Positions 682-18,469 of a stretch of 20,858 bases of DNA are shown piece after piece. The notes below the pieces were generated by a model. The model did not search any database, was not told where the DNA came from, and was given only the letters and a program-made list of their open reading frames with translations. The DNA lies in IMG/VR virus record IMGVR_UViG_3300003332_000011, positions 1-20,858 of that record. One strand, given 5' to 3'. The DNA comes from a virus. Each line of letters begins with the position of its first letter. Position 1 is the first letter of the stretch. The position numbers and the translations under genes were made by a program.

Positions 682-1299
682 ATGACTGGACAAGAAATGC
701 TAGACCAACTCGCTCTGCGACTTGAAGACCCCAATGAAGAGGTGTTCACAGAGGCAACTAAACTGACTTCGTTGAACAACAATCAGCTCAGAATATGCTC
801 TTTTGTTAAACAGGAGTATTTGACTGAGATTGAGGTTTTGGAATCAGCGGTGGCCGTAGCCGGAACACCAACCAAACTCCTGGCGTTCTCAGGACTTGCC
901 AACACCCCGCTGGTTGATGGTATCCAGATGATCGCCGATGACAACGGTATCTTCTGTAACAAAGTTACCGTGAAAGACCTCAAGGCGCTGAATAACACAT
1001 ATTTGGCCGCAACCACATCAAATCCGTACTACTACATTTATTCCGAGAATATCTATGTAGTGCCGAGTTCAATCACGGCTATTGACGTGTATTACCTGAA
1101 ACAACCCACTGCTCTTGCTGCAAGCGCCACTGAGTGCGAACTTGCAACAGCACTTCACTGGATGATCGTAAACTTGGCCGAAGCCGACCTGTTTTATCAA
1201 ATAAACAGGCTTGATAGGGCACAGGCTGCCTATGAAAGGGCTTTTTCTGACGCCAAGATCATTAATGAAAAGCCAACGCTTGAAGAGGCTATATCATGA
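682..1299 (+). CDS. Probable head-tail adaptor (connector) protein
   Basis: The 205-residue product has a strong AGGAGG ribosome binding site at 672-677 ahead of ATG 682. The N-terminal helix (TGQEMLDQLALRLEDPNEE) leads into a helix-rich segment, a central beta portion containing YYYIYSENIYVVPSS and VYYLKQP, and a C-terminal helical pair rich in aromatic and acidic residues (LAEADLFYQINRLDRAQAAY). This helix-beta-helix layout and length are usual for the adaptor that sits under the portal in short-tailed phages. The next gene has the same overall plan and overlaps the stop codon, and the nozzle gene follows it, which supports a head-tail joining role. The exact family was not established; a tail completion protein is an alternative. 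Confidence 0.6.
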   Translation: MTGQEMLDQLALRLEDPNEEVFTEATKLTSLNNNQLRICSFVKQEYLTEIEVLESAVAVAGTPTKLLAFSGLANTPLVDGIQMIADDNGIFCNKVTVKDLKALNNTYLAATTSNPYYYIYSENIYVVPSSITAIDVYYLKQPTALAASATECELATALHWMIVNLAEADLFYQINRLDRAQAAYERAFSDAKIINEKPTLEEAIS

Positions 1300-2090
1300 C
1301 ATTCAGCGTAATGGCTGACAGGGTAATAAGGATCACAAAACAACTCAAGGCCGAAGCCCTGCATTATTTGTATGAAGCGCAAACTGACTTCATCCAGCGC
1401 ACTAATTGCATGCAGAAGATCAAATACTGGCCAATCACGCCCGCTACTGGGACAATAACAACCATTGAGACCGATAGCGGGTATGCGAAATATACCACTA
1501 GCGCAGCACACAGCCTTGCGGTTAATGATTGGGTGGCAATTTGGGACACATCTGGGTATAATGGTATTCAACAGGTAACAGCGGTTGCAGACACCACCCA
1601 TTTTACCACAGACAGGGCTTATAGTGCGGATGAAAGCGGTTTGACTGCTACATTCAGGTATGGGTTCCAATTCGACCTGCCAGATGATTATGTTGATTTC
1701 ACAAGGATTGACTGGGAAGGCCAGCGCCTTGATCAGTATAATTTATTTGATTATGAGACCCTGGCTGAAACAGACGGGTTTGAATTAAAGACCCAGGGCG
1801 ATCCAAGCGGGTTTTGGATGGAGGCTGATATTATCAGACTACTCCCAGCGCCCACAGATACAAGCTCGCTTACTATGAGATATGTGTATTATGATACAAC
1901 CAGCGCACCAACCAGCCCAATAATCCCATCTAAATATCACCAGTATTTGGTTGACTATGCTATTGCTACACAACTTGAGTCGCAAGACCTTAAAGGGAGT
2001 GATGATAGAGTTAGGTTTTATTGGGAGAAATACGGGACAAACGCTGACATGGTATCAGCTAATTATGCTATGAGGGCTATTTCAACATAA
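1296..2090 (+). CDS. Second adaptor or tail-joining protein with an inserted beta domain
   Basis: The ATG overlaps the previous TGA (ATGA), so the two genes are translationally coupled. The 264-residue protein starts with helices (residues 5-40) and has a core from about 125 on with FDLPDDYVDF, a beta stretch around RLLPAPTD and MRYVYYD, and C-terminal helices (KYHQYLVDYAIATQLES). This resembles the adaptor or tail-tube-A type proteins of podoviruses. Residues 50-121 look like an inserted small beta domain: AHSLAVNDWVAIW, SGYNGIQQVTAV and DTTHFTT match a mobile module that I recognise from many phage structural proteins. The neighbours, an adaptor upstream and a nozzle-like protein downstream, fit a connector complex. 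The family name is uncertain. Confidence 0.6.
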   Translation: MTFSVMADRVIRITKQLKAEALHYLYEAQTDFIQRTNCMQKIKYWPITPATGTITTIETDSGYAKYTTSAAHSLAVNDWVAIWDTSGYNGIQQVTAVADTTHFTTDRAYSADESGLTATFRYGFQFDLPDDYVDFTRIDWEGQRLDQYNLFDYETLAETDGFELKTQGDPSGFWMEADIIRLLPAPTDTSSLTMRYVYYDTTSAPTSPIIPSKYHQYLVDYAIATQLESQDLKGSDDRVRFYWEKYGTNADMVSANYAMRAIST

Positions 2091-2101: not shown

Positions 2102-5100
2102 GTGATCCAACGCAAAGAATACATTGACTGGAAAGGTGTATTCACAAATGCTGACACAGCAAAGCTAGTCGATGGCATGGTCGAGGAGCTTAAAAACTTC
2201 CGACCCGTCAACGGACAGCTCGAAAAGACCTTTGGATTCGGTGAGGTAGCTGGTATTAATGCCGTTACTCTGGGTGGCGGTACAGTTATCAATGTCATTG
2301 TGTATAATCACACAGAATTTACGAATGAATATGCTTATATAGCTGTGATCCGAGCGTCAGATACCAGTATTGATGTAAAGTATTGGGATGGGAGCGCCTG
2401 GACATCACTTCTAGGCTCCGAGACACCATCAGCCTATAGAACGAGCGCTAGAGACCCTATTGTCATAGCCGACAAGGTTTTAAGAGTTTTAGCCTCTGAG
2501 GGTGAGGTTCCCTCTGGTGCTGTTTCATCCCTGTCTATAACAGATGGGGGGTCGAACTATCTTGATGGGAGTCTTGTATTCTCAGGTGGCGGGGGTTCAG
2601 GGGCTTCTGGAACCTTCACGGTTTCAGGTGGTGTAATTGACACACTTACCCTCACAGATGGAGGAACCGGCTATACATCCGCCCCAACAGTAACCCCTGA
2701 TCCACTAAAGAGTTTAAATTGGGCTTTAACCACAGAGGGGACTGACGATCAGGGTGATACATACGCCAAGGTAATTAATGTTGGCAATTATTATATAGTC
2801 TCTAATTTGGCAAAGTTGTTGTCATATACCTGGGACGGCACAACCCTTACCTATATTGATAGTGTTACAACAGCGAATGTAGCCCACGACTTAACAACAG
2901 ATGATACATATATTTATACCGTTACTGACACTGGCAAGGTTGAAGCTTATAGCCTAAATCAAAGTACTGGGGCAATGGCCTTGATAACGACACGCACAGG
3001 CGCAGGGAGTAAGGGAATATTGGCCTATGGCGGGTATATCTATTTTGCATCTACCAGCACTGTGTATAGTGTCACTTTCGATGGGTCATCTTTTTCTGAT
3101 GTTGATAATGAGTCGTTAGGGGGAACAGCCTCAGAAATCACAGGGTTGTGGCATGATGGCACGTATCTTCATGTTTTAGGCAGGGGGGGAACTCTTGGAA
3201 TCATGGCGTTCCTCACAACCTCTGGTAGTTTTGGGACGGTTATAAACAATATAGTCCCTACAGGTGATGTTGGGTATGATATAGGAGGCGATGGGACAAA
3301 TCTTTATGTAGCAGACGAGGCTAATGGAGTAGAAGCGTTTTCCTTCGATGGTTCAAATTATTCTACCGTTGGGAGTATTGATGATGGCGGTAATTATAAA
3401 GGTGTCCATTGTTACGGGTCAAGAATTTATTGCTCAAGTAGCGCAGGGATGTTTACCTATGTTATCAATAGTGGGACGTTCTCAGAATCACAATCAAGCC
3501 AGAATACAGACATTAATGGTATTGGATGTTTTGCCGATTCAAACGGGGTTTTAAATGCAAGGTCGGGTGCGGGACTGTCTGCCTATTCATTCACCAACAC
3601 CGACACAGCCATATTAGTAGCAAATGTAAATGCCAGCAATGAATCAACTGGTCTTTGGATCGGGTATATTGATAGAGATTTTTACGATGAGCTTTATAGC
3701 CCCACAGCAGGGTTCTATGCCTATGATAAAACACCCCTGACACCGGATTCATATGAGAACACAAGTGGGGTAGATGTAGATTTATCTCTTAATGGATGGG
3801 GAGATTCAGCATCCAACACAACAAAACGGTATGTACGATATGCCTGGGTTTATGATGGCAACCAAGAATCAATGCTTAGTGGGTTGATCTATACAACTAT
3901 TGATGATGACATTGATAAAGCATATTTTAGGTTAAAGCTGTATGATGGTACAGCCACTAATACCCGGAGCAACTACCGGATTACCGGGGTTAGGGTCTAT
4001 GAAATGGACTCTGCCAGCAAGACTGCCACAGCGACACTTATCAATGAATATTCTTTTACACAGAAAGCAGCGAATAAAGAGAACTTTAGTTCAGCGGGGA
4101 AGGCAAAAGATGCCTTCTGGATTAATGATGATGCAATAGGGTCTAAGACAAGCGGATCATACAGTGCTGATCAGGTTGGCGCCACCGTAAGAATTAAAAA
4201 CTATGTCTCTGGTGACGATTTTACCAATATAGGGGCTGCCTCAAATGCTACAGGGGTCGAATTTGTTATTTCAGGATCAACGCCTACAACATGGACAAAT
4301 GGGTCTGAGCTTGTATTCTTACCTCAAGTTGGCGATTGGGTTGATACAGGATATGATACGGCAGCGGATTATGAGCAAATCACTGCTGTAGAAGAACTAA
4401 CAGACGGGACGTGGGTCCTAACCACAGCCGGCATAACCTGGGTTGAATATACAGTGACATCAGGGGATTGGGACCTATCACAGTCAGACGCAGACAACTC
4501 TAAGTATGCAAGCGGGTCTGGGTCAGGCTATTATGGTGAGAATGTAATTATTGACGGCACTGTTGATTTTAACGACCAGAACTCTATTGGCTTGACAGTC
4601 GCATCATGTAAAACAGACGGCACGGCGGCGCATACGGGTGGATCAGCAGCAGGAGATAATGACCTTCTAACCGTTTTAGAGGTAAACAAACATTGTGTTT
4701 TGGTCGATAGCGATTCAAACGCGCAAACAACTTTTAGATACAACATAGCAGCACAACCTTATGTCTTCTATCTTAACAATAGCGATTATCATTTATATGC
4801 CATTCTTGATTTTGGGAACAAAGAGGGCAGCTCATACGGGTTACAGGATGTTGTGTCTATCAAGGTTAATTCTGATTACGCCAAGGTTATTGGTGGCAGG
4901 ATGTTTCTGGGGAATTGTGTCTTAGACCCGGGCGGGGAGAATGAAGAGCAAGGGTCTAGTATATGCTATTCTGAGCTTGATCAGTACGATGTCGTACCTG
5001 TTTCAAACAGAATCCCCATAAATGACCGTGAATCATCAGGAGTCACTGGTATAGAAGAACTTTTTGGGAACGTGGTGGTCGCTCTTGGTCAATCATTGCA

Positions 5101-5842
5101 GATCATAAATATAAAGGCCGACCCAAACACGCCCGCAAACTGGATTAAAACGGAATCACCCCATAACATAGGGAATATAGCCAAACAGGGGATGATCAGT
5201 GTTTTGGGCAAGGTTTATGTCTGCTATCACGACGGAATCTACGCCTTGAGTGCAAACAACCTGGCAGACACAGATTCCACACCAACCGAGAAATTGAAAA
5301 TAACCAATCCGATAGAAGATACCTACCAAGCCCTCACAACAACACAGAAAGAGGCGATAGAGGCCGAATACGACCAATTAAACAGTGAAATAGTCTTTAA
5401 CCTGAACAGCGAGTTTTGGGCTTATTCTGTTATAACAGGGTTTTGGAGAGAAATAACCACAGGTGAAACCGTTAGCATGATGATCGTTGACGAAGACGCC
5501 GATATTCTTGTATTCAACAACTCAGACCAAAAGTTTTATAATACAAAAGTGAGTGAATCAGTAGCCCCGGGTGTAAAGGTAAAACGTGAGCATGTTTCTT
5601 ATGATCGCAAAGAGCTTATAAGGTCAATAACGGTGAATAACCCATATACAGACCAACTCACAGTAACGCCTTATGTTGATGGGGTGGCAAAGACAGCAAC
5701 CAACGTGTCTGGGAGCACAGCAAAAGCCGTAGTGCCAGTGAATAACTGGGGCTATGATTTCCAGTTTAAACTTGAGTGGGCTGCAAGCACTAATGATGTT
5801 AAAGTAAAAAGGGTGGTGGCAGAATATGATCTTGAAAATTAA
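2102..5842 (+). CDS. Tail tube/nozzle protein with beta-propeller repeats
   Basis: A 1246-residue protein starting at GTG 2102, preceded by AGGGGTAG at 2091-2098. Residues 1-130 begin like other nozzle proteins (KLVDGMVEELKNFRP, then an LEKTFGF motif). Residues 141-198 contain two copies of a (S/T)-(I/L)-TDGG-x-x-Y glycine-rich module. Residues 206-500 are a run of short beta repeats alternating Y-x-W/F-DGT/S strands with IYTVTD, IYFAS, LYVADE and IYCSSS, which suggests an LVIVD-type propeller. Residues 692-740 carry a small common phage module (DDFTNIGAASNATGVEF). Residues 930-1140 (GGRMFLGN, ICYSELDQYD, NVVVALGQSLQIINI, YVCYHDGIYALS, ITGFWREI) form a second propeller-like region, and 1160-1246 is a terminal beta domain. 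This layout fits the protein closing the tail tube in short-tailed phages. The position after two adaptors and before ejection-type genes agrees. No catalytic motif is visible. Confidence 0.65.
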   Translation: MIQRKEYIDWKGVFTNADTAKLVDGMVEELKNFRPVNGQLEKTFGFGEVAGINAVTLGGGTVINVIVYNHTEFTNEYAYIAVIRASDTSIDVKYWDGSAWTSLLGSETPSAYRTSARDPIVIADKVLRVLASEGEVPSGAVSSLSITDGGSNYLDGSLVFSGGGGSGASGTFTVSGGVIDTLTLTDGGTGYTSAPTVTPDPLKSLNWALTTEGTDDQGDTYAKVINVGNYYIVSNLAKLLSYTWDGTTLTYIDSVTTANVAHDLTTDDTYIYTVTDTGKVEAYSLNQSTGAMALITTRTGAGSKGILAYGGYIYFASTSTVYSVTFDGSSFSDVDNESLGGTASEITGLWHDGTYLHVLGRGGTLGIMAFLTTSGSFGTVINNIVPTGDVGYDIGGDGTNLYVADEANGVEAFSFDGSNYSTVGSIDDGGNYKGVHCYGSRIYCSSSAGMFTYVINSGTFSESQSSQNTDINGIGCFADSNGVLNARSGAGLSAYSFTNTDTAILVANVNASNESTGLWIGYIDRDFYDELYSPTAGFYAYDKTPLTPDSYENTSGVDVDLSLNGWGDSASNTTKRYVRYAWVYDGNQESMLSGLIYTTIDDDIDKAYFRLKLYDGTATNTRSNYRITGVRVYEMDSASKTATATLINEYSFTQKAANKENFSSAGKAKDAFWINDDAIGSKTSGSYSADQVGATVRIKNYVSGDDFTNIGAASNATGVEFVISGSTPTTWTNGSELVFLPQVGDWVDTGYDTAADYEQITAVEELTDGTWVLTTAGITWVEYTVTSGDWDLSQSDADNSKYASGSGSGYYGENVIIDGTVDFNDQNSIGLTVASCKTDGTAAHTGGSAAGDNDLLTVLEVNKHCVLVDSDSNAQTTFRYNIAAQPYVFYLNNSDYHLYAILDFGNKEGSSYGLQDVVSIKVNSDYAKVIGGRMFLGNCVLDPGGENEEQGSSICYSELDQYDVVPVSNRIPINDRESSGVTGIEELFGNVVVALGQSLQIINIKADPNTPANWIKTESPHNIGNIAKQGMISVLGKVYVCYHDGIYALSANNLADTDSTPTEKLKITNPIEDTYQALTTTQKEAIEAEYDQLNSEIVFNLNSEFWAYSVITGFWREITTGETVSMMIVDEDADILVFNNSDQKFYNTKVSESVAPGVKVKREHVSYDRKELIRSITVNNPYTDQLTVTPYVDGVAKTATNVSGSTAKAVVPVNNWGYDFQFKLEWAASTNDVKVKRVVAEYDLEN

Positions 5843-6011
5843 GGGCAGGCAAAGGCCAACAAAAAAGAGCCTTAAAGAGGGTGAGGGCGTGGTTATTGAA
5901 CATAAAGCAGCGCAGTATTCGCCAGAAGAAAAGGCTGGTAAATTCCTTTATTTGAGGGTTGGTGATAGTTTATTGAGAACTAAATTAGAAGAAGTTGAGT
6001 GGAGGGAATGA
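5826..6011 (+). CDS. Small basic protein between nozzle and internal virion genes
   Basis: The 61-residue product overlaps the end of the nozzle gene by 17 bases and ends just before the next start. A purine-rich GGGTGGTGG stretch lies about 8 bases upstream of the ATG. The sequence starts with a lysine/arginine-rich tail (ILKIKGRQRPTKKSLKEGEG) and continues with a predicted beta segment (GKFLYLRVGDSLLRTKLEEV). No known motif is seen. Tight packing between late genes is the main argument that it is real; a virion accessory role is a guess from position. Confidence 0.55.
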   Translation: MILKIKGRQRPTKKSLKEGEGVVIEHKAAQYSPEEKAGKFLYLRVGDSLLRTKLEEVEWRE

Positions 6012-6012
6012 G

Positions 6013-6891
6013 ATGCCAGTAGCAGCAGCACTATTAGCAGGGGGCACAGCCCTTGCCAAATACGGGTTATCAAGATATAACATTAAGAAGCGTGGGAAAT
6101 TTGCCGGTACCCCGGAGGGCATAGAATTAGCCCGCAGAAAGCGTGAGGGGAACTTAACTCCTGAGATGGAGCGTGAAATTCTTGCACAACAGAACAGAAC
6201 ACTTTCTGCACAGTCAGAAGCCGAAACAGCACGAACCAAGGGTAGGCTTATAAAGAGTGGTATGGGTGATTCTATTTCCGGGATCAGGGCATTGTCCCAA
6301 CCCAACACAAGACGCATGGCGGAATTAGGCTATACATCCAGGAATATTGCCGCCAGTGAAGCGCAGGCTATGTCTGAGGCCAAAAGCCAGTTTGCCGGAG
6401 GCCAAAGTCGTTTTAATGAAGAAACGCGCCAGCTTAAATCCCAAGCCACAGGTGAGTTAATAGGCGGTCTCAGTGGTGCATTAGGTGGTTATTTACAGAG
6501 CAAACTTTCAACAAAACAATCAGCACTGGACTTTAGCCGGCAGAAAGAACTCGCTGAAATCAAATCCCTTACCCCTGAAGAAAGAATAATGAGGGACATC
6601 CAAGCAGAATCCGCAGGAGGCGGCGCACCACTTACAGAGCTTACAGGGAAGGGCTATACCCCGTCTTCATACAGGAACAGCGCTGATCTCATAGGTCAAG
6701 GAATGGATATTGGAGCCATCCTGGGGCGTGTCCAAAACAGTGCAAACCCAAACAAAGACGATGTTTTTAGACTACAGGAGTTGTTACAATCAGAGGGCTT
6801 GTACTCTGGGGCAATAGATGGTATAATGGGGCCGGGGACACAGCTAGGCATTGATCAATTAGCCGCAAGAAACAAATACAGAGCTAGATAG
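6013..6891 (+). CDS. Internal virion (ejection-type) protein with C-terminal peptidoglycan-binding domain
   Basis: The start chosen is ATG 6013, because the ribosome binding site GGAGGG at 6001-6006 lies just before it; a longer frame from TTG 5995 would contain that site. The 292-residue protein begins with a small hydrophobic segment (PVAAALLAGGTALAKYG). It continues as alanine, glutamate and glutamine-rich helices, and has a glycine-zipper segment near residues 146-162 (TGELIGGLSGALGGYLQ). Residues 249-286 match the PG_binding_1 pattern: FRLQELLQSEGLYSGAIDG followed by GPGTQLGID. The size, helix content and place before two larger helical proteins resemble the first of the three ejected internal proteins of T7-type phages. 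The peptidoglycan-binding tail suggests contact with the host wall during DNA entry. Ejection is inferred from context. Confidence 0.6.
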   Translation: MPVAAALLAGGTALAKYGLSRYNIKKRGKFAGTPEGIELARRKREGNLTPEMEREILAQQNRTLSAQSEAETARTKGRLIKSGMGDSISGIRALSQPNTRRMAELGYTSRNIAASEAQAMSEAKSQFAGGQSRFNEETRQLKSQATGELIGGLSGALGGYLQSKLSTKQSALDFSRQKELAEIKSLTPEERIMRDIQAESAGGGAPLTELTGKGYTPSSYRNSADLIGQGMDIGAILGRVQNSANPNKDDVFRLQELLQSEGLYSGAIDGIMGPGTQLGIDQLAARNKYRAR

Positions 6892-6901
6892 CAGGGTTAA
6901 C

Positions 6902-7759
6902 ATGCCACAACCCACAGCAGCGAATTTAATTGAGTACACAAAACGGACAGGGAAGTTATATCCCACAGTTAAGAACGAGGAACACTACTTTAAAGTAACT
7001 GGTCAGCGTGTCCCGTGGTATAAAGAGAAAAAGGAAACAGCAGTCCAGAGGCTCGCCAGGGTAAAAGCTGAGAGAGCGTTGGCTAAAAAGCCCGAGACTG
7101 TTCAAACAGTTGGTGGCAAACCCATAACAAAGATTACCAAGGAGACCAAAGAGCGTGTTGCCTACCGAAAGGCCAAGGCAGAGGAAAAGAAACAGCTTAC
7201 CCCTAAAAAGGGGAGAACTATTGAAAAAGCTGCTGCCAGCTTTGGGAAAAGAGCAGGTGAGTTGTCTGGGCTTGAGAAAACAGCAGCAGCAGTCGCAAGC
7301 AAAAGGATACAGGAGCAGATTGAAAGTGAGGGGTTAACCGACCCTGAGAAGATAGAGAAACGAAGAAAAGAGCTTAAATCTAAAATTGACCCTGTACGTG
7401 AAATACTGAAGACTACTCGCGCATCATTAGCAGACTCAAGCCAAATGCTTGTTAATATCCAACGTAGGCCAGAGATTTTCGGCAAAGATCCGGATGTGGA
7501 TGTTATTTTCCGCAACACCCAAAACTTTGAACAAGCCCTGGATGAATTTAATCAGACAACAGAAGGCTTAACAGCACAGATAGTTAATGAACTTGGGCAA
7601 AAAGGACAGTTGGGGCCAGCAGGGGAATATTACGACAAGCTCGCTCGCCAAAAAGCTCAAGAAGAAGCCTCAAAAGCTATTGCCGCAAAATATGGATATT
7701 CACTGGAAGATATGGAAAGATACCTAGCCCTTGTCAAGGAAGGCATTGATGCCCCGTAA
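6902..7759 (+). CDS. Basic helical protein, possible internal virion protein
   Basis: A 285-residue, lysine/arginine-, glutamate- and glutamine-rich protein with no membrane segment and no recognised catalytic motif. Only a weak AGGG lies ahead of ATG 6902. Residues 1-45 contain a small aromatic region (EYTKRTGKLYPTV, YKEKKE). Residues 45-185 are strongly charged and likely coiled coil (RLARVKAERALAKK, KRRKELKSKIDPVREIL). The C-terminal part has further amphipathic helices (YYDKLARQKAQEEASKAIA). It lies between the peptidoglycan-binding protein and the giant polyvalent protein, and its stop overlaps the next start. The position matches the middle member of a podovirus ejection set, but this is inference from order and composition only. 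Confidence 0.5.
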   Translation: MPQPTAANLIEYTKRTGKLYPTVKNEEHYFKVTGQRVPWYKEKKETAVQRLARVKAERALAKKPETVQTVGGKPITKITKETKERVAYRKAKAEEKKQLTPKKGRTIEKAAASFGKRAGELSGLEKTAAAVASKRIQEQIESEGLTDPEKIEKRRKELKSKIDPVREILKTTRASLADSSQMLVNIQRRPEIFGKDPDVDVIFRNTQNFEQALDEFNQTTEGLTAQIVNELGQKGQLGPAGEYYDKLARQKAQEEASKAIAAKYGYSLEDMERYLALVKEGIDAP

Positions 7760-10700
7760 ATTATTTGACCAAGACCCGCTAGACCTATCATCCTTTGACA
7801 TCAAGGGCATGGCAGACGACATCTACACCCAAGTGAGGGATGAGACCAACCCTGTCTATAAAGCAGCTAATATCCTAAAAACCCAGTATGAATCAGAAGT
7901 AGATGAGGCACTTAAGAAGGTTGAGGAGGAAGAGCTGAAAAGGGTTGAAAAACAATTAGGCCAGCTGGTTATCCCCGCAGACCCCACAGAGCGAGGGGAG
8001 CAATTAATTACGGCATTTAAAGCTGGTATTGGTGATGTGGGTCAACTTATTGGCCGAGGAATAGAATTGGGAGCTAAAGCCCTCAAGGAATCTCCATTAA
8101 TGGGCTTTAGTGTTGACCCAACACATGTGCCAGCCCTATCTACCCCGGGAATCACGAAGAAATTAATGACTCCGCTTCCAGAAAGCTCAAAAGCACAATT
8201 AGATAAATACGCAGAACTGGGCGATAGGATCAGAAAAGACGCCGAGAAATTGAGTGAGAAGAATACTCAATTTGCAGAGTTAAAAGAATTTGAGTGGATA
8301 GACTTGGCAGACCCAAACTTTTATTTTACAAAGGGGGCAAGAACGGTTCCCTTGTTAGCAACATTGATTCCTACAGCGGTAGCCGGAGGTGCTGTAGGAT
8401 CGGGGCTAGCTACAGCCGCAGGCGCAGGGGCGCTAGGCATAAACACTGCCGGTGCAATCATGTCGGCCATATTCTCAAGACCGGTTGAATCAGCAATGGA
8501 AGCTCTTGGCACTTATAATGAATTAACAGAAGCGGGGGTTGATCCGAGCGTCGTAGCGGAAGAATCAGCCAAGGTGTTCAAAAAGAACCTTGGTCTTGCC
8601 GGTATGGATGCGGTGCAGTGGGCATTAGCTTTTGGTAAAATACCAAAACCAGCCAGAAAGGGCTTCGTCAGGTTTGCTCAGAAGGTTGCAGCATCTAAAA
8701 CAGGCAGGGCGGCTAGATTTGCGATTGGGGCTGGCTCAGAGGGTGAAGAAGAGGTCATACAGGAATACTTTGTTGACCAAGCAAGAGCAGCAGTGAAGGG
8801 TGAGGCCGATCCAGACTTCTTAAAAGCACTAATGCTATCAACACCAGAACAACGCGAAGTCTTTGCCCTGGGCGCCATGACAGGCACTATATTCCAGACG
8901 GTTGGTGAGGTAACTACCGGGAAGATGTCAAAAGAGCAAGTGGATAATGTTATTGGAGAGGTATTGGAAGGAAACAAAATACCATCCGAAGAAACCAGGA
9001 GGGCAGAAGATGAACGTATTAAAAAGAATGAGATTATTCCTGAACCACCAAAGGTTGCTGAGGACTTATCAGAAATGGCAGTACAGCAACAACCCCCTAT
9101 TAGTGAAAAGAGGGAATACGACCCTTCGGGTAAAGCAATCGAAGATACGAGAATACTTAGAGAATCATTAGCAGAGGATATCCAACCATCCAAATTAAGC
9201 AAAGAGGACATTGAAACCCAAAAGACAGTGAAAAAAGTCCTTGATGTTGACCTTGTATTTACAGAGGGCATGGACACAGCCAACGGCGTTGTCATCCCGG
9301 AAGCAAAGGGCACAATATTCGTTGATAGAGGCGCTGACAACCCCGTGATGGCCGTTATAGGGCATGAATGGACACATGACCTTAAAGCACGGAACAAGGG
9401 CTTATATGACGAATTGCTGACTATTGCAGATGAAATGGATTCCAAGGGGTTAAGCCAAAAAAAGGCTAGCCTTAAAAGTCGCTATACCAGCGCCAATAAA
9501 AAACGGGCAGCCGCAGGGGAAGACCCACTCGCCATACCGACACAAGAACAGATTACTGACGAAATAATCGGTGATTTCATGGGTGAGAGGATGCACGACC
9601 AATCATTTTGGGAGCGTGTTGAAGCAAGAAGCCCGCAGTTACTTCAAGACATGATTGCTTACATGAAAAAGGTTGTTGCCAAGCTGAAGGGTGAAATCCC
9701 GGAAGCATACAAAACAGGTGACTTATTTAAGACCAAAGAATCCCTTGAGAAAGCTATTAACATAGCGTCTAATGTTGTAGCGAAAAAGTCGGCAGAAGCT
9801 AAGTTGGCAAAAAAGAGCGAGATTAAAAAGGCTACTCCCGAAACAGCAGACAGTTACAAGGAAAAGTATGCTAACAAAGACGGGTGGGTGACAGTCAGGG
9901 TATTAGACCCCACCAAGAAAAAGGGGACACTCAAAAGAAAGCCCTATATCCTAAAAACACGAGACATCCTTGAAACCCCCACTGGTATTGAGATAGTAGA
10001 TAACAACGAGGGCGTAACCTATAAACTTGATGAAGTTGAAATCGCCGGATCATCCCTACAGCGAGAAACGGCAAGAGCCAAGGCGAATACAGTAAACGCC
10101 AGACTTGATGAACTTGGATTAAAAGGAAAAGAGCGAGTAACCCAGAGGAAGAAGATTAATTCAGAATCAAAGAACTTTGGAAATCTGGCAATCGAAGTGG
10201 TGGAGCAAGAGAATCTCAACCCCGCCAGACTTAAAGAGATCGCCACTGAAATGGGCATGGAAGAATTGCTTGGCAAGCAAGGCACTGACAGCCAAATCCA
10301 ACAGATATACCGTGATGCAGCCAGCCAACTGGTCTTTGAAGAATTTGGATTTAAGGGCAATCCCAAAAATGTTGTAGATAGGCACAAGGCCACTGAGGGG
10401 TTAAAAAAGAAAGTCGGAGGGGGCGTCGGAGAAAAAGCACTAATTGATACAGATAAATATTATAAAGCTGTAGATCGTGGAATATTCCAAGAGATAGTCT
10501 CAAAATCAGTACAGAAGGATGGCCAAAAACTATTAGACGCCATAGATTCAGGTGATATAGATGTTTTGAACCAGCTAATTTTAAAATATCAGCGTGACGC
10601 GGGGATATCCCAAGGCGGCGGTGGAGTTGGCCCCAAGAAAACAAAACAAGCCAGACATGGTACAGCACAATTGTTTAGATTAGCCACTGATGCTATTAAG

Positions 10701-13700
10701 GAATTAAAGGGGAAACTCAAGGAGGCATCAGAAGGTAAAGCCTTAGAGGAAAAGGCTATATTTCAACTTAAAGACACCTACTTTTCACAACTCACCAAAT
10801 CTGTAGAGGACATGACCCAAAAGAAAGCCCCACCGAGTCAATGGATGGCGGTTATCCGCAAGCAACCAGGGGTTAAAAAAGAAGAAATTGAATGGTCTGG
10901 CTTGGAGGAGTGGCTATCCGACCAAAAGGGCAGTGTCGGCAGGGAAGATGTGGTAAACTACCTGAAGGCCAACGAGATCAAAGTTACTGAGACTGAGCTA
11001 GCAGACATTGGGACGGGTATAGTCACAACCCCGAATGAAGAAGAGCCAAATATATTTGAAGTGTTCAGGGCAGATGATCCAAAGGGCGAGTTCTACGGGA
11101 CTCTAGGCGAGATAATAGAACTCCCAGACGGCACATACAAGGTGAATGTCCCAAGCATAAATCAGGCGATATTTGACACCAAAATCGAAGCCGAAGAGTA
11201 TATTAAGTCATCAAAAGTTTTAGGGACTCAAACCAAATTCGGCCAATACACCACCCCCGGAGGCCAGACCTACAGGGAGTTATTGCTTACGTTGCCACAA
11301 CCAAAAATAAATAAAACATACAATGAGTGGCTAAACGAGAACTACACAGGCGTTGACAGTAAAGAAGCTCGTGAATTATACAAAATTCAAATAGACCCAG
11401 ACACCCCAAATTTCACATCATCCCACTTCGACCAACCCAATGTATTAGCCCACATCCGCTTTGATGAACGCACAGACTCAGAAGGCCGTAAGGTGCTCCA
11501 TATAGCAGAGATTCAGAGTGATTGGCATCAAAAAGGGCGCAAAAAGGGGTATATGGCGAATGATGCTGTCGGATATTATGGAGACCCAAAAACGAATGAC
11601 TGGGTTCTAACAGACAAAGACGAAAATGAAGTTGGAAGATACAGGCACTCTGAATTTGGGAATGGGAGTGCCGCAGTTCGCTGGCACAATAATACAGGTG
11701 TCCCCAACGCCCCATTCAAGACCACATGGCCTTTACTCGCCATGAAACGCATGATCCGATATGCCGCAGAAAACGGCTTTGATGCTGTCACATGGGACAC
11801 GGGAGAGATTCAGGCAGAACGGTATGACCTGAGTAAGCAGTTAGACAAGGTTGTCTGGAACAAAAGTAGCAAGTTATTGTATGGATATAAATCTGGTGAT
11901 GAGCTTATAAGAGAAAGCAATGTCACAGAAGCCAATCTTGCTGACTACGTGGGGAAAGAGGCGGCTAAGAAGTTGTCTATAGAGGACTTAGAAAGAACGA
12001 CCCCTCAAGACATACGCACAATCTCTGGCCTTGACCTAAAAGTTGGCGGCGAAGGCATGGCCGCATTCTACGACAAAATGCTCCCATCCATGATAAACAA
12101 GTATGTTAAGAAGTGGGGCGGGAGAGTTCAGCCGGTAAAGATTAGTATTGGTGCTAAATATGCAGCGCATAGTGGGAATAAATATGTTGTAGTAGATGAA
12201 CAAGGGCTTGATTGGTTTTCTACAGGCTCAAGGGAATCCGCGCAAAAAGAGTTGGAGCGCATGGTAAATGCGAATCCAGATGGTCTTTATAGGGTAGTTG
12301 AGAATATAGAATCAAATACAGCCCATTCCCTCACCATAACCCCCCAGATGAAAGAGGCGGCTCTTGCGGGACAGCCACTATTTCAACTAAAGCAATCTGC
12401 TTTTACAAAAGGCGAAGAGAAGAAAGAAATTAAATCTAAAGCCTTTCTAGAACACCTTGACTATTTTGGAGACAGAATATTGCCAGAAGACTCTAAAATC
12501 CGCACCCTCAAGAAGCGGATACAGCGCATCAACGGGTTAAGGTTGTCTGGCAAAATAACCACTCAAGAAGCCAACCGTAGGGCTAGGGGTATACACAGAG
12601 AGTTAATCCAGACAGCGCAAGCCGAGGGCGTTTCCATAAGGACAACCAGGGGGGGCAAAAGCTTTGTCTCAGTACGCAAATCCGGGGTGTATGTACCAGA
12701 AGAGTTTAGCAAATACGATAAGTTTAAGGATGTCAAGCCAACTTTTGGCGGAGGGAACGATTTAACAAGGTTTATACAGGAAATAGACGGCTCGCTAACT
12801 GTTAAGCAAAAAGCCAAAATGAAGGGGCAGGCGGGGCAGGTCGAGCAGAACATCCTTTGGCCTTCAAGAGATATTTCAATCCAAAAGATGAAATGGTTAT
12901 CAGAAAAACAGGCTGAATTGAAAATCTTATTAGCCGGTATCAAGCCCAGCTCTAAAAAAGACATTGCTGTAACTGATGTACTAAGGGTTATAAGTAGTGG
13001 TGATAATATTGAAACGGCACTTACTAAAAGTCAAACCAAAGATCGTGGTATTGCAGCCAAGGCAGTTAGGCTCAGAGACTTTTACGACACTATGCTAGAT
13101 GAACAGAATGTTGCCCGCGAAATGAGAAATCAACCATTAATCCCCTTCAGGCGAGACTATTCACCTGAGATGCTAAGGGACGCTACTATATGGGAACGCG
13201 TCTTTAATCGCAAAAAAGACCCAAATGAGATTATAAAAGATAAGACACTGCCTGACTATATAAGACCAAACAAGCCGTTTAACCCAAGAGAACTTGCCAA
13301 CGAACACGGCATTCCTTATGAAGAGCAGGTAAAATCAGCCGTTGACCTAGCTAGCAAATATATGGTAACAGCCTCTAAAGACATTTTCAACACTTCGATT
13401 ATTGAGAACAATAAAGCATTTATCCAACAAATGGAAGCCCTTGAGTTAAACAATGCAGCGCAAGCGCTAGGGCAGTGGACAGCCGAGACATACGCAGGCT
13501 TGGAAAATCCTATGGACAAGGCCATCCCTAAAAAAATGAAGTCTTATATGCGCAAGTTCAATCAAATAAGAAACATGGCTGTATTCCCCTTTAACTACGC
13601 CTGGTCATTAGTTACCCAACCGTCATCGTTTGCATTTACCGCCATGAGATATAAGCCCACAAACGTTTTAAAGGGTATGTATGATTGGGCGCAGCCAGAG

Positions 13701-14660
13701 ATTAGAAGGCAGGCCGCAGAAGATTATTATTCCTTTATAGTCAAAACAACCAAAGAGGGGCGGCTTTCACGGCAGGATGCAGAAAACCTTATTGGTGGTG
13801 ACGTTAGGATATATGAAAGCCCAGTAGATATGCTACACGATGTCTCAACACTCTTGCTTGACCAAATAGAGCGATTGCTTACAGGCATATCAATTAGAGC
13901 CGCATACCATGAGGGTAAATCCAGAGGGCTAAAGGGTGCGGCATTAAGACAGTTTGCCTCAGATGGTGGCGCTAAAACCCAATCCATGTATAATGATGAA
14001 GACAAGCCCAGGATACTCAAAAGTTTAGGTGTAAAAACGGCCGCACCGTTCCAAACCTTCGCCTTTGAGGTTAAAAATACAATAAGAGAAGTGGCTGGTA
14101 AAACAGGGACACCGCCAAGCACCCAGATGGAAAGGATTATGTGGGGAATAAGGTTTACTGCTGCTGCATCAGTCTTCCAGGCTTTTGCTAAGTGGTGGTT
14201 GGGCAAAGAGGTATGGAATTGGCGCAGACCGCCATTGCCTTTCGCTGAATTTTGGCTAAATCCCATAATTGACAAACTCTCAGGGACATATAGCAGCGGA
14301 ACGCGCAACCTCCCATCCCCAGTAAGCACAGCCACTCGTGTTTCTAAGGGGATTAATGATTATTTGGTAACTGGTGACACCAGAAAGTTTAGAAACGAAT
14401 TTATAAAATATGCACCGGGCTTTTTTAATATACCAGGTGGGGTTCAGATTTCACGACTTGTAGATGCTACAATAGCTTATTCAGAGGGTGGGATTTATGA
14501 CCGCAAGGGCAGACTCATGTTCCCAATAGAAACAGATGATGATTTGATAAAAGCAGTAATCGGAGGCGTTTGGGCAACCAAGGGCGGGCAAGAATGGCTT
14601 AAAAAGCGTAAGCCTAAAAAGTCACCCATAGAAATATTTATAGAGAGACAAAAAAAATGA
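7749..14660 (+). CDS. Giant polyvalent phage protein with metallopeptidase motif, probably ejected
   Basis: A 2303-residue protein. ATG 7749 is preceded by AAGGAAGG at 7736-7743, so the longer TTG 7731 start is not used. Residues 1-190 are charged helices. Residues about 198-245 are hydrophobic and glycine/alanine-rich (LLATLIPTAVAGGAVGSGLA), likely membrane-interacting. Residues about 498-620 hold a zinc metallopeptidase motif, GHEWTHDLK (H539, E540, H543), with E605 and D609 in DEIIGDFMGE as possible third-ligand residues. Residues about 1155-1465 carry a cassette that I recognise as recurring in large phage and plasmid polyvalent proteins (QTKFGQYTTPGGQTYRELLL, SSHFDQPNVLAHIRF, EIQSDWHQKGRKKGY, QAERYDLSKQ, DLKVGGEGM); its function is unknown. 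The last 700 residues are helical with hydrophobic patches, and the ending (GGVQISRLVDATIAYSEGG) is typical of giant phage proteins. By position and size it would be the large ejected protein. No lysozyme or transglycosylase motif was found. The LPD-type label is inference. Confidence 0.7.
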   Translation: MPRKLFDQDPLDLSSFDIKGMADDIYTQVRDETNPVYKAANILKTQYESEVDEALKKVEEEELKRVEKQLGQLVIPADPTERGEQLITAFKAGIGDVGQLIGRGIELGAKALKESPLMGFSVDPTHVPALSTPGITKKLMTPLPESSKAQLDKYAELGDRIRKDAEKLSEKNTQFAELKEFEWIDLADPNFYFTKGARTVPLLATLIPTAVAGGAVGSGLATAAGAGALGINTAGAIMSAIFSRPVESAMEALGTYNELTEAGVDPSVVAEESAKVFKKNLGLAGMDAVQWALAFGKIPKPARKGFVRFAQKVAASKTGRAARFAIGAGSEGEEEVIQEYFVDQARAAVKGEADPDFLKALMLSTPEQREVFALGAMTGTIFQTVGEVTTGKMSKEQVDNVIGEVLEGNKIPSEETRRAEDERIKKNEIIPEPPKVAEDLSEMAVQQQPPISEKREYDPSGKAIEDTRILRESLAEDIQPSKLSKEDIETQKTVKKVLDVDLVFTEGMDTANGVVIPEAKGTIFVDRGADNPVMAVIGHEWTHDLKARNKGLYDELLTIADEMDSKGLSQKKASLKSRYTSANKKRAAAGEDPLAIPTQEQITDEIIGDFMGERMHDQSFWERVEARSPQLLQDMIAYMKKVVAKLKGEIPEAYKTGDLFKTKESLEKAINIASNVVAKKSAEAKLAKKSEIKKATPETADSYKEKYANKDGWVTVRVLDPTKKKGTLKRKPYILKTRDILETPTGIEIVDNNEGVTYKLDEVEIAGSSLQRETARAKANTVNARLDELGLKGKERVTQRKKINSESKNFGNLAIEVVEQENLNPARLKEIATEMGMEELLGKQGTDSQIQQIYRDAASQLVFEEFGFKGNPKNVVDRHKATEGLKKKVGGGVGEKALIDTDKYYKAVDRGIFQEIVSKSVQKDGQKLLDAIDSGDIDVLNQLILKYQRDAGISQGGGGVGPKKTKQARHGTAQLFRLATDAIKELKGKLKEASEGKALEEKAIFQLKDTYFSQLTKSVEDMTQKKAPPSQWMAVIRKQPGVKKEEIEWSGLEEWLSDQKGSVGREDVVNYLKANEIKVTETELADIGTGIVTTPNEEEPNIFEVFRADDPKGEFYGTLGEIIELPDGTYKVNVPSINQAIFDTKIEAEEYIKSSKVLGTQTKFGQYTTPGGQTYRELLLTLPQPKINKTYNEWLNENYTGVDSKEARELYKIQIDPDTPNFTSSHFDQPNVLAHIRFDERTDSEGRKVLHIAEIQSDWHQKGRKKGYMANDAVGYYGDPKTNDWVLTDKDENEVGRYRHSEFGNGSAAVRWHNNTGVPNAPFKTTWPLLAMKRMIRYAAENGFDAVTWDTGEIQAERYDLSKQLDKVVWNKSSKLLYGYKSGDELIRESNVTEANLADYVGKEAAKKLSIEDLERTTPQDIRTISGLDLKVGGEGMAAFYDKMLPSMINKYVKKWGGRVQPVKISIGAKYAAHSGNKYVVVDEQGLDWFSTGSRESAQKELERMVNANPDGLYRVVENIESNTAHSLTITPQMKEAALAGQPLFQLKQSAFTKGEEKKEIKSKAFLEHLDYFGDRILPEDSKIRTLKKRIQRINGLRLSGKITTQEANRRARGIHRELIQTAQAEGVSIRTTRGGKSFVSVRKSGVYVPEEFSKYDKFKDVKPTFGGGNDLTRFIQEIDGSLTVKQKAKMKGQAGQVEQNILWPSRDISIQKMKWLSEKQAELKILLAGIKPSSKKDIAVTDVLRVISSGDNIETALTKSQTKDRGIAAKAVRLRDFYDTMLDEQNVAREMRNQPLIPFRRDYSPEMLRDATIWERVFNRKKDPNEIIKDKTLPDYIRPNKPFNPRELANEHGIPYEEQVKSAVDLASKYMVTASKDIFNTSIIENNKAFIQQMEALELNNAAQALGQWTAETYAGLENPMDKAIPKKMKSYMRKFNQIRNMAVFPFNYAWSLVTQPSSFAFTAMRYKPTNVLKGMYDWAQPEIRRQAAEDYYSFIVKTTKEGRLSRQDAENLIGGDVRIYESPVDMLHDVSTLLLDQIERLLTGISIRAAYHEGKSRGLKGAALRQFASDGGAKTQSMYNDEDKPRILKSLGVKTAAPFQTFAFEVKNTIREVAGKTGTPPSTQMERIMWGIRFTAAASVFQAFAKWWLGKEVWNWRRPPLPFAEFWLNPIIDKLSGTYSSGTRNLPSPVSTATRVSKGINDYLVTGDTRKFRNEFIKYAPGFFNIPGGVQISRLVDATIAYSEGGIYDRKGRLMFPIETDDDLIKAVIGGVWATKGGQEWLKKRKPKKSPIEIFIERQKK

Positions 14661-17488: not shown

Positions 17489-18023
17489 GATCACGCCCTT
17501 TGTGCTTGCACTCATGGCAATAATCTTGGTCGGATATGCCACATGGACACTCAAGCCCCCAGAATACAGAGAAGTCCCCACACACGACACCCTGTATGTC
17601 CCCGCAGATTCAGCGACTATTATCAAGGAAGCCATTAGGGGTAAGATCGTAGGCACCTATGATGAGTTGGTCGAGAAGTTTGGCAAGGTGGTTAAGAAAG
17701 TACGGATTATTGACAGCCTTAATATTGTTGACAGCACTCATTGGGATACTCTTTTATACTCTATACCTACTCTCGAATCAAGGGATACCCTTAACTATTC
17801 AGGGGTGAGCCTATTAAATGAAGATACATTAAGAGTTAGTCTCAGGGTTAGGGTGTACAATCTTGCACTCTTAGAGCCAATTTACGCCATCCAAAACACG
17901 ATTGTAGTAGATAGTATCAAAATAATTGTCCCCCCCGAGCCAGGGGCAAGCCTGCTGTCCAGGATTAAGGAATTGTGGTGGCTTCCCTTGGCAGGTGCGA
18001 TTGCATGGGAGATTATTAGATAA
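17469..18023 (+). CDS. Bitopic membrane protein, possible spanin-like lysis component
   Basis: This 184-residue protein overlaps the previous gene by 20 bases. A hydrophobic helix at 8-27 (ITPFVLALMAIILVGYATW) anchors it. The long middle region is extracytoplasmic in type, with repeated DTL or DSL turns (THDTLYVP, IIDSLNIVDSTHWDTLLY, RDTLNYS). The C-terminus has a second short hydrophobic segment (LWWLPLAGAIAWEIIR). A membrane anchor with a periplasmic body just before the endolysin is typical of inner-membrane spanins in phages of Gram-negative hosts. However, no coiled coil or lipoprotein partner is seen, so this is only a candidate. Confidence 0.5.
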   Translation: MANLVPKITPFVLALMAIILVGYATWTLKPPEYREVPTHDTLYVPADSATIIKEAIRGKIVGTYDELVEKFGKVVKKVRIIDSLNIVDSTHWDTLLYSIPTLESRDTLNYSGVSLLNEDTLRVSLRVRVYNLALLEPIYAIQNTIVVDSIKIIVPPEPGASLLSRIKELWWLPLAGAIAWEIIR

Positions 18024-18469
18024 TGCCGAAGTTTGGACGCAGATCAAAAGAAAAACTGGAAACTGCTGATCCAATTTTGCAAAACCTGTTCAGGGTTGTA
18101 ATCCAATTTATAGACTGCTCAATCATCTTTGGCAACCGTGAATCAGCCGAGCAATTTGAATTATTCAAAAAAGGCCGATCCTTTATTGATAATAAGTGGG
18201 TGATTACAGACAAATCAAAAGTAGTAACCTACAAAGACGGGTTCAAGAAAAAGAGCAAACATAACTACCTGCCATCCAAAGCCGTTGACGTAGTCCCATA
18301 TCCTATTGACTGGGAAGATAGAGAGAAAGCATATTATTTCGCTGGAATTGTCAAAGGGATAGCGTACATGATGGGAATCAAAGTCCGCTGGGGAGGCGAT
18401 TGGGATAGCGACAACGACCTCAAAGACCAAACATTTAACGACCTGTGGCACTGGGAAATCGTCGAATAG
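18023..18469 (+). CDS. Endolysin, M15-type zinc peptidase
   Basis: The ATG overlaps the previous stop. The 148-residue protein has the M15 (VanY/Ply500-like L-alanyl-D-glutamate peptidase) core. SKHNYLPSKAVDV gives zinc ligands H80 and D89, and LWHWEI gives the third ligand H143, with D140 three residues before it as the likely catalytic acid. The spacing D-x-x-H matches that family. Upstream, residues 40-62 (SAEQFELFKKGRSF) form the usual helix before the active site. The enzyme would cut the stem peptide of peptidoglycan at the end of infection. No signal peptide or separate wall-binding domain is present, so release should depend on a holin; four membrane-protein genes lie directly upstream. 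Confidence 0.9.
   Translation: MPKFGRRSKEKLETADPILQNLFRVVIQFIDCSIIFGNRESAEQFELFKKGRSFIDNKWVITDKSKVVTYKDGFKKKSKHNYLPSKAVDVVPYPIDWEDREKAYYFAGIVKGIAYMMGIKVRWGGDWDSDNDLKDQTFNDLWHWEIVE

Follow-up and report, generated by a model that had tools for sequence, protein, structure and literature searches.

We analyzed a 20,858-base stretch of viral DNA, IMG/VR virus record IMGVR_UViG_3300003332_000011 (hereafter, the window), which is the entire record, the sole record of this phage used and probably a fragment of the virus genome. A single open reading frame (ORF) in the window, uninterrupted by stops, encodes a giant mosaic protein of 2303 residues made up of an N-terminal domain, a zincin-like metallopeptidase, a cassette of ~540 residues and a helical C-terminal module of ~740 residues (Table 1). 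Each of the four modules is distributed separately among relatives, and the activities ascribed to them are predictions. The cassette is bracketed by two [IL]FQLK motifs, and we favor the explanation, with a probability of roughly 0.55, that the giant is the third ejection protein of a short-tailed phage whose payload enzyme is excised at these paired motifs. The modules, their mosaic arrangement, the paired motifs and the motif statistics can all be read directly from the sequences of the window protein and its relatives, which are identified below by locus numbers (L001 and so on).

Protein-specific motifs bracket the cassette

The terminal stretch of the cassette has the form G-x-P-[LM]-F-x. 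Free-standing cassette proteins continue for a median of 28 residues past this motif, and for only a few in the chromosomal gammaproteobacterial branch, indicating that the unit naturally ends here. Motif pairs flank the cassette in other proteins as well: FHRK/FHRK in L072, FSRPK/FSRPK in L051, FSNR/FSNR in L189, YSPADD/FSPADE in L169, FSPR/FSPR in L025 and FQGE/FQGE in L096. The motif also appears at extra domain junctions, as [FL]H[KRN]K in L072, S-x-[DE]-R in L075 and FSK in L003.

To quantify recurrence, the tripeptide that follows the C-end anchor was sought within 48 residues upstream of the same cassette in non-redundant proteins, with 5000 permutations as the null. Exact recurrence was found in 11 of 83 giants compared to 0.67 ± 0.8 under the null, a value reached in 0 of 5000 permutations. 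Relaxing the match to at least three of four residues yielded 18 giants (null 1.75 ± 1.3), again unreached in 5000 permutations, while exact recurrence in free-standing cassettes was 0 of 30 (0.5 expected). ART domains have no homology to the cassette, and their ends, as independent ends, agreed with those of the cassettes in the proteins that carry both (P = 0.001 for the first residue and 5e-5 for the best of three). Over whole proteins, 7 tetrapeptides recurred versus 1.4 ± 1.2, and a 7-mer search, a weak test, gave 9 of 91 proteins at p < 0.05 versus 1-5 in offset controls, with p = 0.07 for the window protein. The other, targeted tests are stronger, but they were devised once examples had been seen, and their significance is therefore exploratory.

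A motif that is protein-specific, bilateral, conserved at the protein level and absent from free units resembles the cut sites of a polyprotein, and we read the flanking motifs as putative excision sites. We considered it highly unlikely that they are instead scars of DNA duplication or of linker recombination at cassette insertion. In favor of scars are the rampant shuffling of domains in these proteins and, in L169 and L058, the use of the same codons for the residues that match between the two sites. Over all pairs, however, matching residues are encoded by different codons in 50 of 92 cases (54%), compared to 52% for random same-residue pairs from the same genes, which argues against recent DNA copying, and scars fit poorly with the presence of the motif at more than two junctions in L072, L075, L189 and L003.

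An embedded predicted metallopeptidase as the likely cutter at the proposed sites

The initial annotation had pointed to an HEWTH metallopeptidase motif, and alignment of its relatives bore this out. In alignment A4, H539, E540 and E605 are invariant, H543 is present in over 90% of the sequences, and all four residues occur together in 19 of 20. By comparison, an HExxH arises by chance in 1.5% of shuffles of the giant protein. The best PDB profile match of the peptidase is MMP-2, aligned across its HExxH, and is weak (E 0.005). The position of the domain is not fixed, since it precedes the cassette in the window protein and follows it in L001. Of 120 cassette-bearing giants, 93 contain an HExxH or HExxxH (shuffles give 10.9), as does 1 of 68 small cassette-bearing proteins, although the comparison of giants with small proteins is confounded by size and domain number. 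The embedded metallopeptidase is a likely candidate for the protease that would cut at the motifs.

An alternative that we view as unlikely keeps the same ejection polyprotein but has a prohead or host protease cut it, leaving the giant's own metallopeptidase to target host proteins. Prohead proteases process head proteins in other phages, a role presumed in the case of the P1 capsid protein (PMC9024508), and the occurrence of the motifs among giants does not follow that of HExxH. Against prohead-protease sites, the motifs, sought in the other ORFs of the same loci, gave chance-like hits only, a search that is incomplete in that not all capsid genes lie inside the loci. Furthermore, the motifs differ between proteins, which would suit a protease acting in cis.

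The cassette is a widespread family with a predicted GNAT-like fold

The conserved unknown cassette of the initial annotation proved to be a large family, present in at least 570 viral contigs, in 70 contigs from genome assemblies of bacteria and archaea and in just 5 cultured phage records, among them Nostoc phage Nsp-JY18, Microcystis phage Mel-JY33, Pelagibacter phage HTVC028P and Dolichospermum phage Dfl-JY45; none of the Burkholderia phage records contained it. Sequence searches with the cassette against Pfam and PDB gave no match. Its nearest relative (44% identity) lies in L018, where the payload is otherwise different (LPD1, RadC and LPD5) and the gene directly upstream of the giant encodes a homologue (E 3e-17) of the 285-residue protein encoded upstream of the giant in the window.

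An AlphaFold2 model of the cassette built with 76 sequences had a mean predicted local distance difference test (pLDDT) score of 79.7, with much of the core above 90, and a predicted template modeling (pTM) score of 0.78. It contains strands at 169-177, 228-239 and 244-252, then a helix at 254-262, an insertion, a helix at 323-337, a strand at 342-346, a helix at 431-452 and strands at 456-471 and 512-525, and this strand-helix order fits that of a GNAT acetyltransferase. In Foldseek comparisons of the model with PDB, the best E values were 0.056 or higher, and GNATs or isocitrate lyase 2 (ICL2) dominated the top 50 matches. The C-terminal domain of ICL2 binds acetyl-CoA and is GNAT-like. Comparison with viral models gave 27 matches below 0.001, which we take to be phage members of the cassette family, and the next named proteins were mostly N-acyltransferases. 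At the level of sequence profiles there was no Pfam GNAT match on the window protein and no PDB profile match. The place expected for the acyl-CoA loop, after strand 4, is glycine-rich, with conserved Q257, G259 and G263 (numbering of alignment A5), and departs from the canonical Q/R-x-x-G-x-G/A. Strictly conserved polar residues (E42, Y171, E173, H222, R233, E250, Q252, S253 and R354, same numbering) suggest that the cassette is an enzyme. The resemblance of the model to the GNAT fold is weak, and a GNAT-like fold is likely but unproven.

About 30 free-standing cassette proteins of 350-650 residues occur in the contigs of genome assemblies L207-L245 (for example, L215:9614-11290). They derive mostly from gammaproteobacterial assemblies, often of sulfur-oxidising symbionts, and some of the contigs span hundreds of kilobases. 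These proteins appear to be a branch of the phage family that resides in chromosomes, and their gene neighbors gave no clue to function. A single protein of Dolichospermum phage Dfl-JY45 (L014, 9925-17088) has two cassette-like stretches and several ART-PolyVal-like domains. The giants of L001 (2-14755) and L003 (2-14188), about 4700-4900 residues long, unite methylase or helicase domains, the cassette and stretches with HExxH or HExxxH in one chain that has a helical part at its C-terminus.

The terminal modules

The N-terminal module is shared with L058, L142 and L185 (E about 1e-103), and profile comparison with the N-termini of L002/L005/L008/L011-type giants gave weak matches over short stretches (69-84% probability). 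The initial annotation had described a membrane-type hydrophobic segment. Hydrophobic patches are indeed present at residues 202-242, but their best 19-residue Kyte-Doolittle hydropathy is 1.57, slightly below the 1.6 usual for a membrane helix.

The helical C-terminus, also noted initially, is conserved in nine phage contigs (L097-L105, 47-54% identity) and helical by prediction, although its structural model is poor (pLDDT 54.8, pTM 0.32). Proteins of these nine contigs contain no HExxH and no cassette and have different N-terminal parts. In most relatives homology to the C-module begins about 7-15 residues past the motif, and the payloads carried on it include a J-domain in L100 and a weak ART-PolyVal in L105. 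The L100 J-domain (giant at L100:6228-10230; DnaJ, PF00226, E 3.6e-10) could recruit host DnaK after ejection. By hhalign, the C-module matched the C-termini of L005/L008/L011-type giants with 92-96% probability (controls 0.7-5%). The match to L008 fell to 37% when a single L008 sequence was used, so this link depends on profiles. Neither the whole giant nor its C-terminus had a useful sequence match in PDB, and the C-terminus had no direct match in the phage collection. Its assignment as LPD38 was rejected, with no Pfam match and hhalign probabilities of 0.2-0.6% to the C-termini of L001 and L010.

The giant gene lies in a podovirus-like virion gene block

The 2303-residue ORF was confirmed in both coordinates and length. 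Its start codon is the ATG at 7749, with AAGGAAGG placed 5 bases upstream, while the program-made ORF list begins at TTG 7731. The gene sits in a podovirus-like virion gene block, among late virion genes, with the endolysin (homologue in L011, E 2e-17) and an exonuclease (phrog_298) encoded downstream. The peptidoglycan-binding protein after which the initial annotation placed the giant does lie upstream, but two genes away, with the 285-residue gene intervening and a PG_binding_1 match below the Pfam cut-off.

Table 1 Features of the window and of the giant protein.
Feature	Position	Strand	Residues	Basis or remark
Two connector/virion proteins	682..2090	+		phrog_14543 and phrog_399, weak, E about 3e-4
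Tail hub/nozzle-like protein	2102..5842	+	1246 aa	phrog_460 head closure Hc2, E 6e-8
298-aa protein	5995..6891	+	298 aa	gp14-like position by inference; weak C-terminal PG_binding_1, E 8e-4
285-aa charged protein	6902..7759	+	285 aa	gp15-like position; 11-base overlap with giant gene
Giant ejection/polyvalent protein gene (predicted)	7749..14660	+	2303 aa
N-terminal module	8217..8912	+	157-388	common to L058/L142/L185
Zincin-like metallopeptidase domain	9183..9848	+	479-700	jackhmmer family, 31 hits
HEWTH	9363..9377	+	539-543	predicted zinc ligands H539 and H543, general base E540; alignment A4
Predicted third zinc ligand	9561..9563	+	E605	invariant column of A4
IFQLK	10758..10772	+	1004-1008	proposed N-terminal excision site
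Conserved cassette	10773..12377	+	1009-1543 (~1007-1544)	predicted GNAT-like fold
EIQSDWHQ within cassette	11508-11531	+
LFQLK	12378..12392	+	1544-1548	proposed C-terminal excision site
C-terminal helical module	12414..14657	+	1556-2303	proposed packaging/ejection backbone
M15-type endolysin	18023-18469			phrog_465, E 4e-32

The neighbors of the window giant are too divergent for a gp16-type place to be judged by anything but position. Upstream of its giant, the relative L100, which shares the C-module, encodes tail tubular A (phrog_394, E 2e-45), tail tubular B (phrog_376, E 2e-190), an internal virion protein (phrog_418, E 1e-18) and a 481-residue protein; downstream lies phrog_1640, a T7-like tail-fibre N-terminus (E 1e-30). 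The gene plans of HTVC028P and BPP-1 are similar. In HTVC028P (L015, 8204-14078) the cassette protein is encoded by its own gene adjoining an annotated 'internal virion protein', unlike the window protein and most giants, where cassette and C-terminal part are fused. By analogy with these gene orders, the giant holds the place of T7 gp16 and BPP-1 bbp10.

That the giant is a tape-measure protein, or a protein from outside the virion whose gene happens to have virion genes as neighbors, appears very improbable. The whole protein matches zero families in Pfam, PHROG and NCBIfam at E<0.1, which gives such a reading some room, but the profile searches turned up neither a tape-measure nor a non-virion profile. 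A tape-measure or non-virion role also accords poorly with the short-tailed-phage tail genes beside the C-module relative, with the detection of the JC1 giant in virions (PMC9144972) and with the presence of a peptidase and a globular cassette.

Relation to known polyvalent and ejection proteins

The giant size, several disparate domains, virion-gene neighbors, HExxH zincin with a downstream glutamate and kinship to ART-, LPD- and helicase-bearing proteins are those of phage polyvalent proteins as described by Iyer et al. 2017 (PMC5512222). By its domain content, the window giant is a member of that class. It has no LPD, ART or PBECR Pfam domain (E<0.1); domains of this type occur in its relatives and are not required of every polyvalent member. 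That paper proposes release of the domains by peptidases and draws the analogy to polyproteins; no cut sites were found named in the searched passages of its main text.

The giant resembles T7 gp16, and the gp14-gp15-gp16 set, in position, in the three genes before the tail fibre (in L100), in size and in its predicted helical C-terminus. It differs in having no PDB sequence match and no transglycosylase that we could find, with the peptidase and cassette as payload instead. BPP-1 Bbp10 (2052 residues) occupies the same place, in the order bbp12 (internal virion protein), bbp11, bbp10 and tail fibre, and contains an HExxH. Its C-terminus is 44% identical to the L008 C-module, which the window C-terminus matches by profile (94%). 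Relatives of the L008 C-module also occur in Caulobacter phages SR18 and Jess A. Unlike the window giant, Bbp10 lacks the cassette, and its HESGH region is not matched by the window peptidase profile. Bbp10 and the CLCA_X predicted metalloproteases (PMC3650047) are among the known proteins nearest to the giant, and the BPP-1 paper makes no statement on Bbp10 in virions. Annotations such as 'lysin' or 'beta/gamma crystallin motif' on ejection-position giants in public records, as in Nostoc phage Nsp-JY18 (L016, 7168-19206) and BPP-1 bbp10 (L246, 4687-10845), are probably misleading.

The Bcep22/JC1 DarB-like giant JC1 gp69 (4515 residues) is likewise a giant encoded in a virion module. It differs from the window giant in being of the methylase-helicase (DarB-like) type. 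Mass spectrometry of virions detected it through 51 unique peptides (PMC9144972). The L001 giant matches this DarB-like class through phrog_10089. By analogy to JC1 gp69, the window giant would be packaged and injected with the DNA. Module content, the gene order of the C-module relative and virion proteomics of this related kind of giant thus agree with the initial proposal of a polyvalent protein in the ejected-protein position. The further suggestion of a distinct ejection machine was not upheld: the genes follow the layout of T7 gp14-15-16 and BPP-1 bbp12-11-10, and this combination is just one of many mosaics. The giant is a known kind of protein, a phage polyvalent ejection protein, in its ordinary place and with a new combination of modules. 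What looks new is the unclassified GNAT-like cassette family and the protein-specific motif pair around the cassette.

The virion RNA polymerase of phage N4 shares the design of N-terminal part, middle payload and C-terminal part, has an embedded zincin domain and is ejected; no T7-like RNA polymerase domain was matched in the window giant by Pfam, PHROG or PDB. The N4 enzyme raises an alternative that we regard as quite unlikely, in which the giant is ejected whole and the paired motifs serve as linkers or as unfolding or packaging signals. The N4 enzyme is packaged unprocessed (PMC5512222). A linker role, however, predicts neither the protein-specific identity of the two flanks nor the absence of the motif from free-standing cassettes.

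A model for payload release

In the model that we favor, excision at the paired motifs, the giant would be the third and largest ejection protein of a short-tailed phage, in the place of T7 gp16 or BPP-1 bbp10. The helical module at the C-terminus, together with the mildly hydrophobic one at the N-terminus, would form a backbone for packaging and envelope crossing, and the middle would be a swappable payload, here the zincin metallopeptidase and the GNAT-like enzyme. The peptidase or another protease would cut at the motifs on either side of the enzyme, either inside the head or once entry has taken place, and the freed enzyme would have the same extent as its free-standing relatives. Packaging, ejection, cleavage, the cutting protease and the activity of the enzyme are what we infer from these comparisons.

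Several observations weigh against this model. The exact repeat is confined to the 11 giants identified above; in the rest the match is partial or absent. All 11 exact-motif giants have an HExxH, yet so do 41 of the 48 giants that lack a motif match, and the motif is therefore not statistically tied to the peptidase. The N4 polymerase has a similar peptidase and is nonetheless packaged uncut (PMC5512222). The window protein is linked to the JC1 giant by way of a family shared with L001. Finally, the GNAT assignment of the model rests on PDB fold matches with E values of 0.056 or higher. We see an even chance that the giants as a class are true polyproteins, with a private repeated cleavage signal that co-evolves with the embedded protease and a GNAT-like enzyme that is cut free to act as an effector, either at packaging or following entry.

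The 2017 proposal that embedded metallopeptidases process polyvalent proteins came without cut sites in the passages searched (PMC5512222). The analysis singles out a widespread, unclassified, enzyme-like family found largely outside cultured phages, and the paired motifs provide a candidate signature of polyprotein processing that can be tested. If the motifs are cut sites, the processing idea becomes testable on single constructs, with exact predicted termini for virion proteomics. If true, domain boundaries, and hence free effectors, would be readable from sequence across many unannotated phage proteins.

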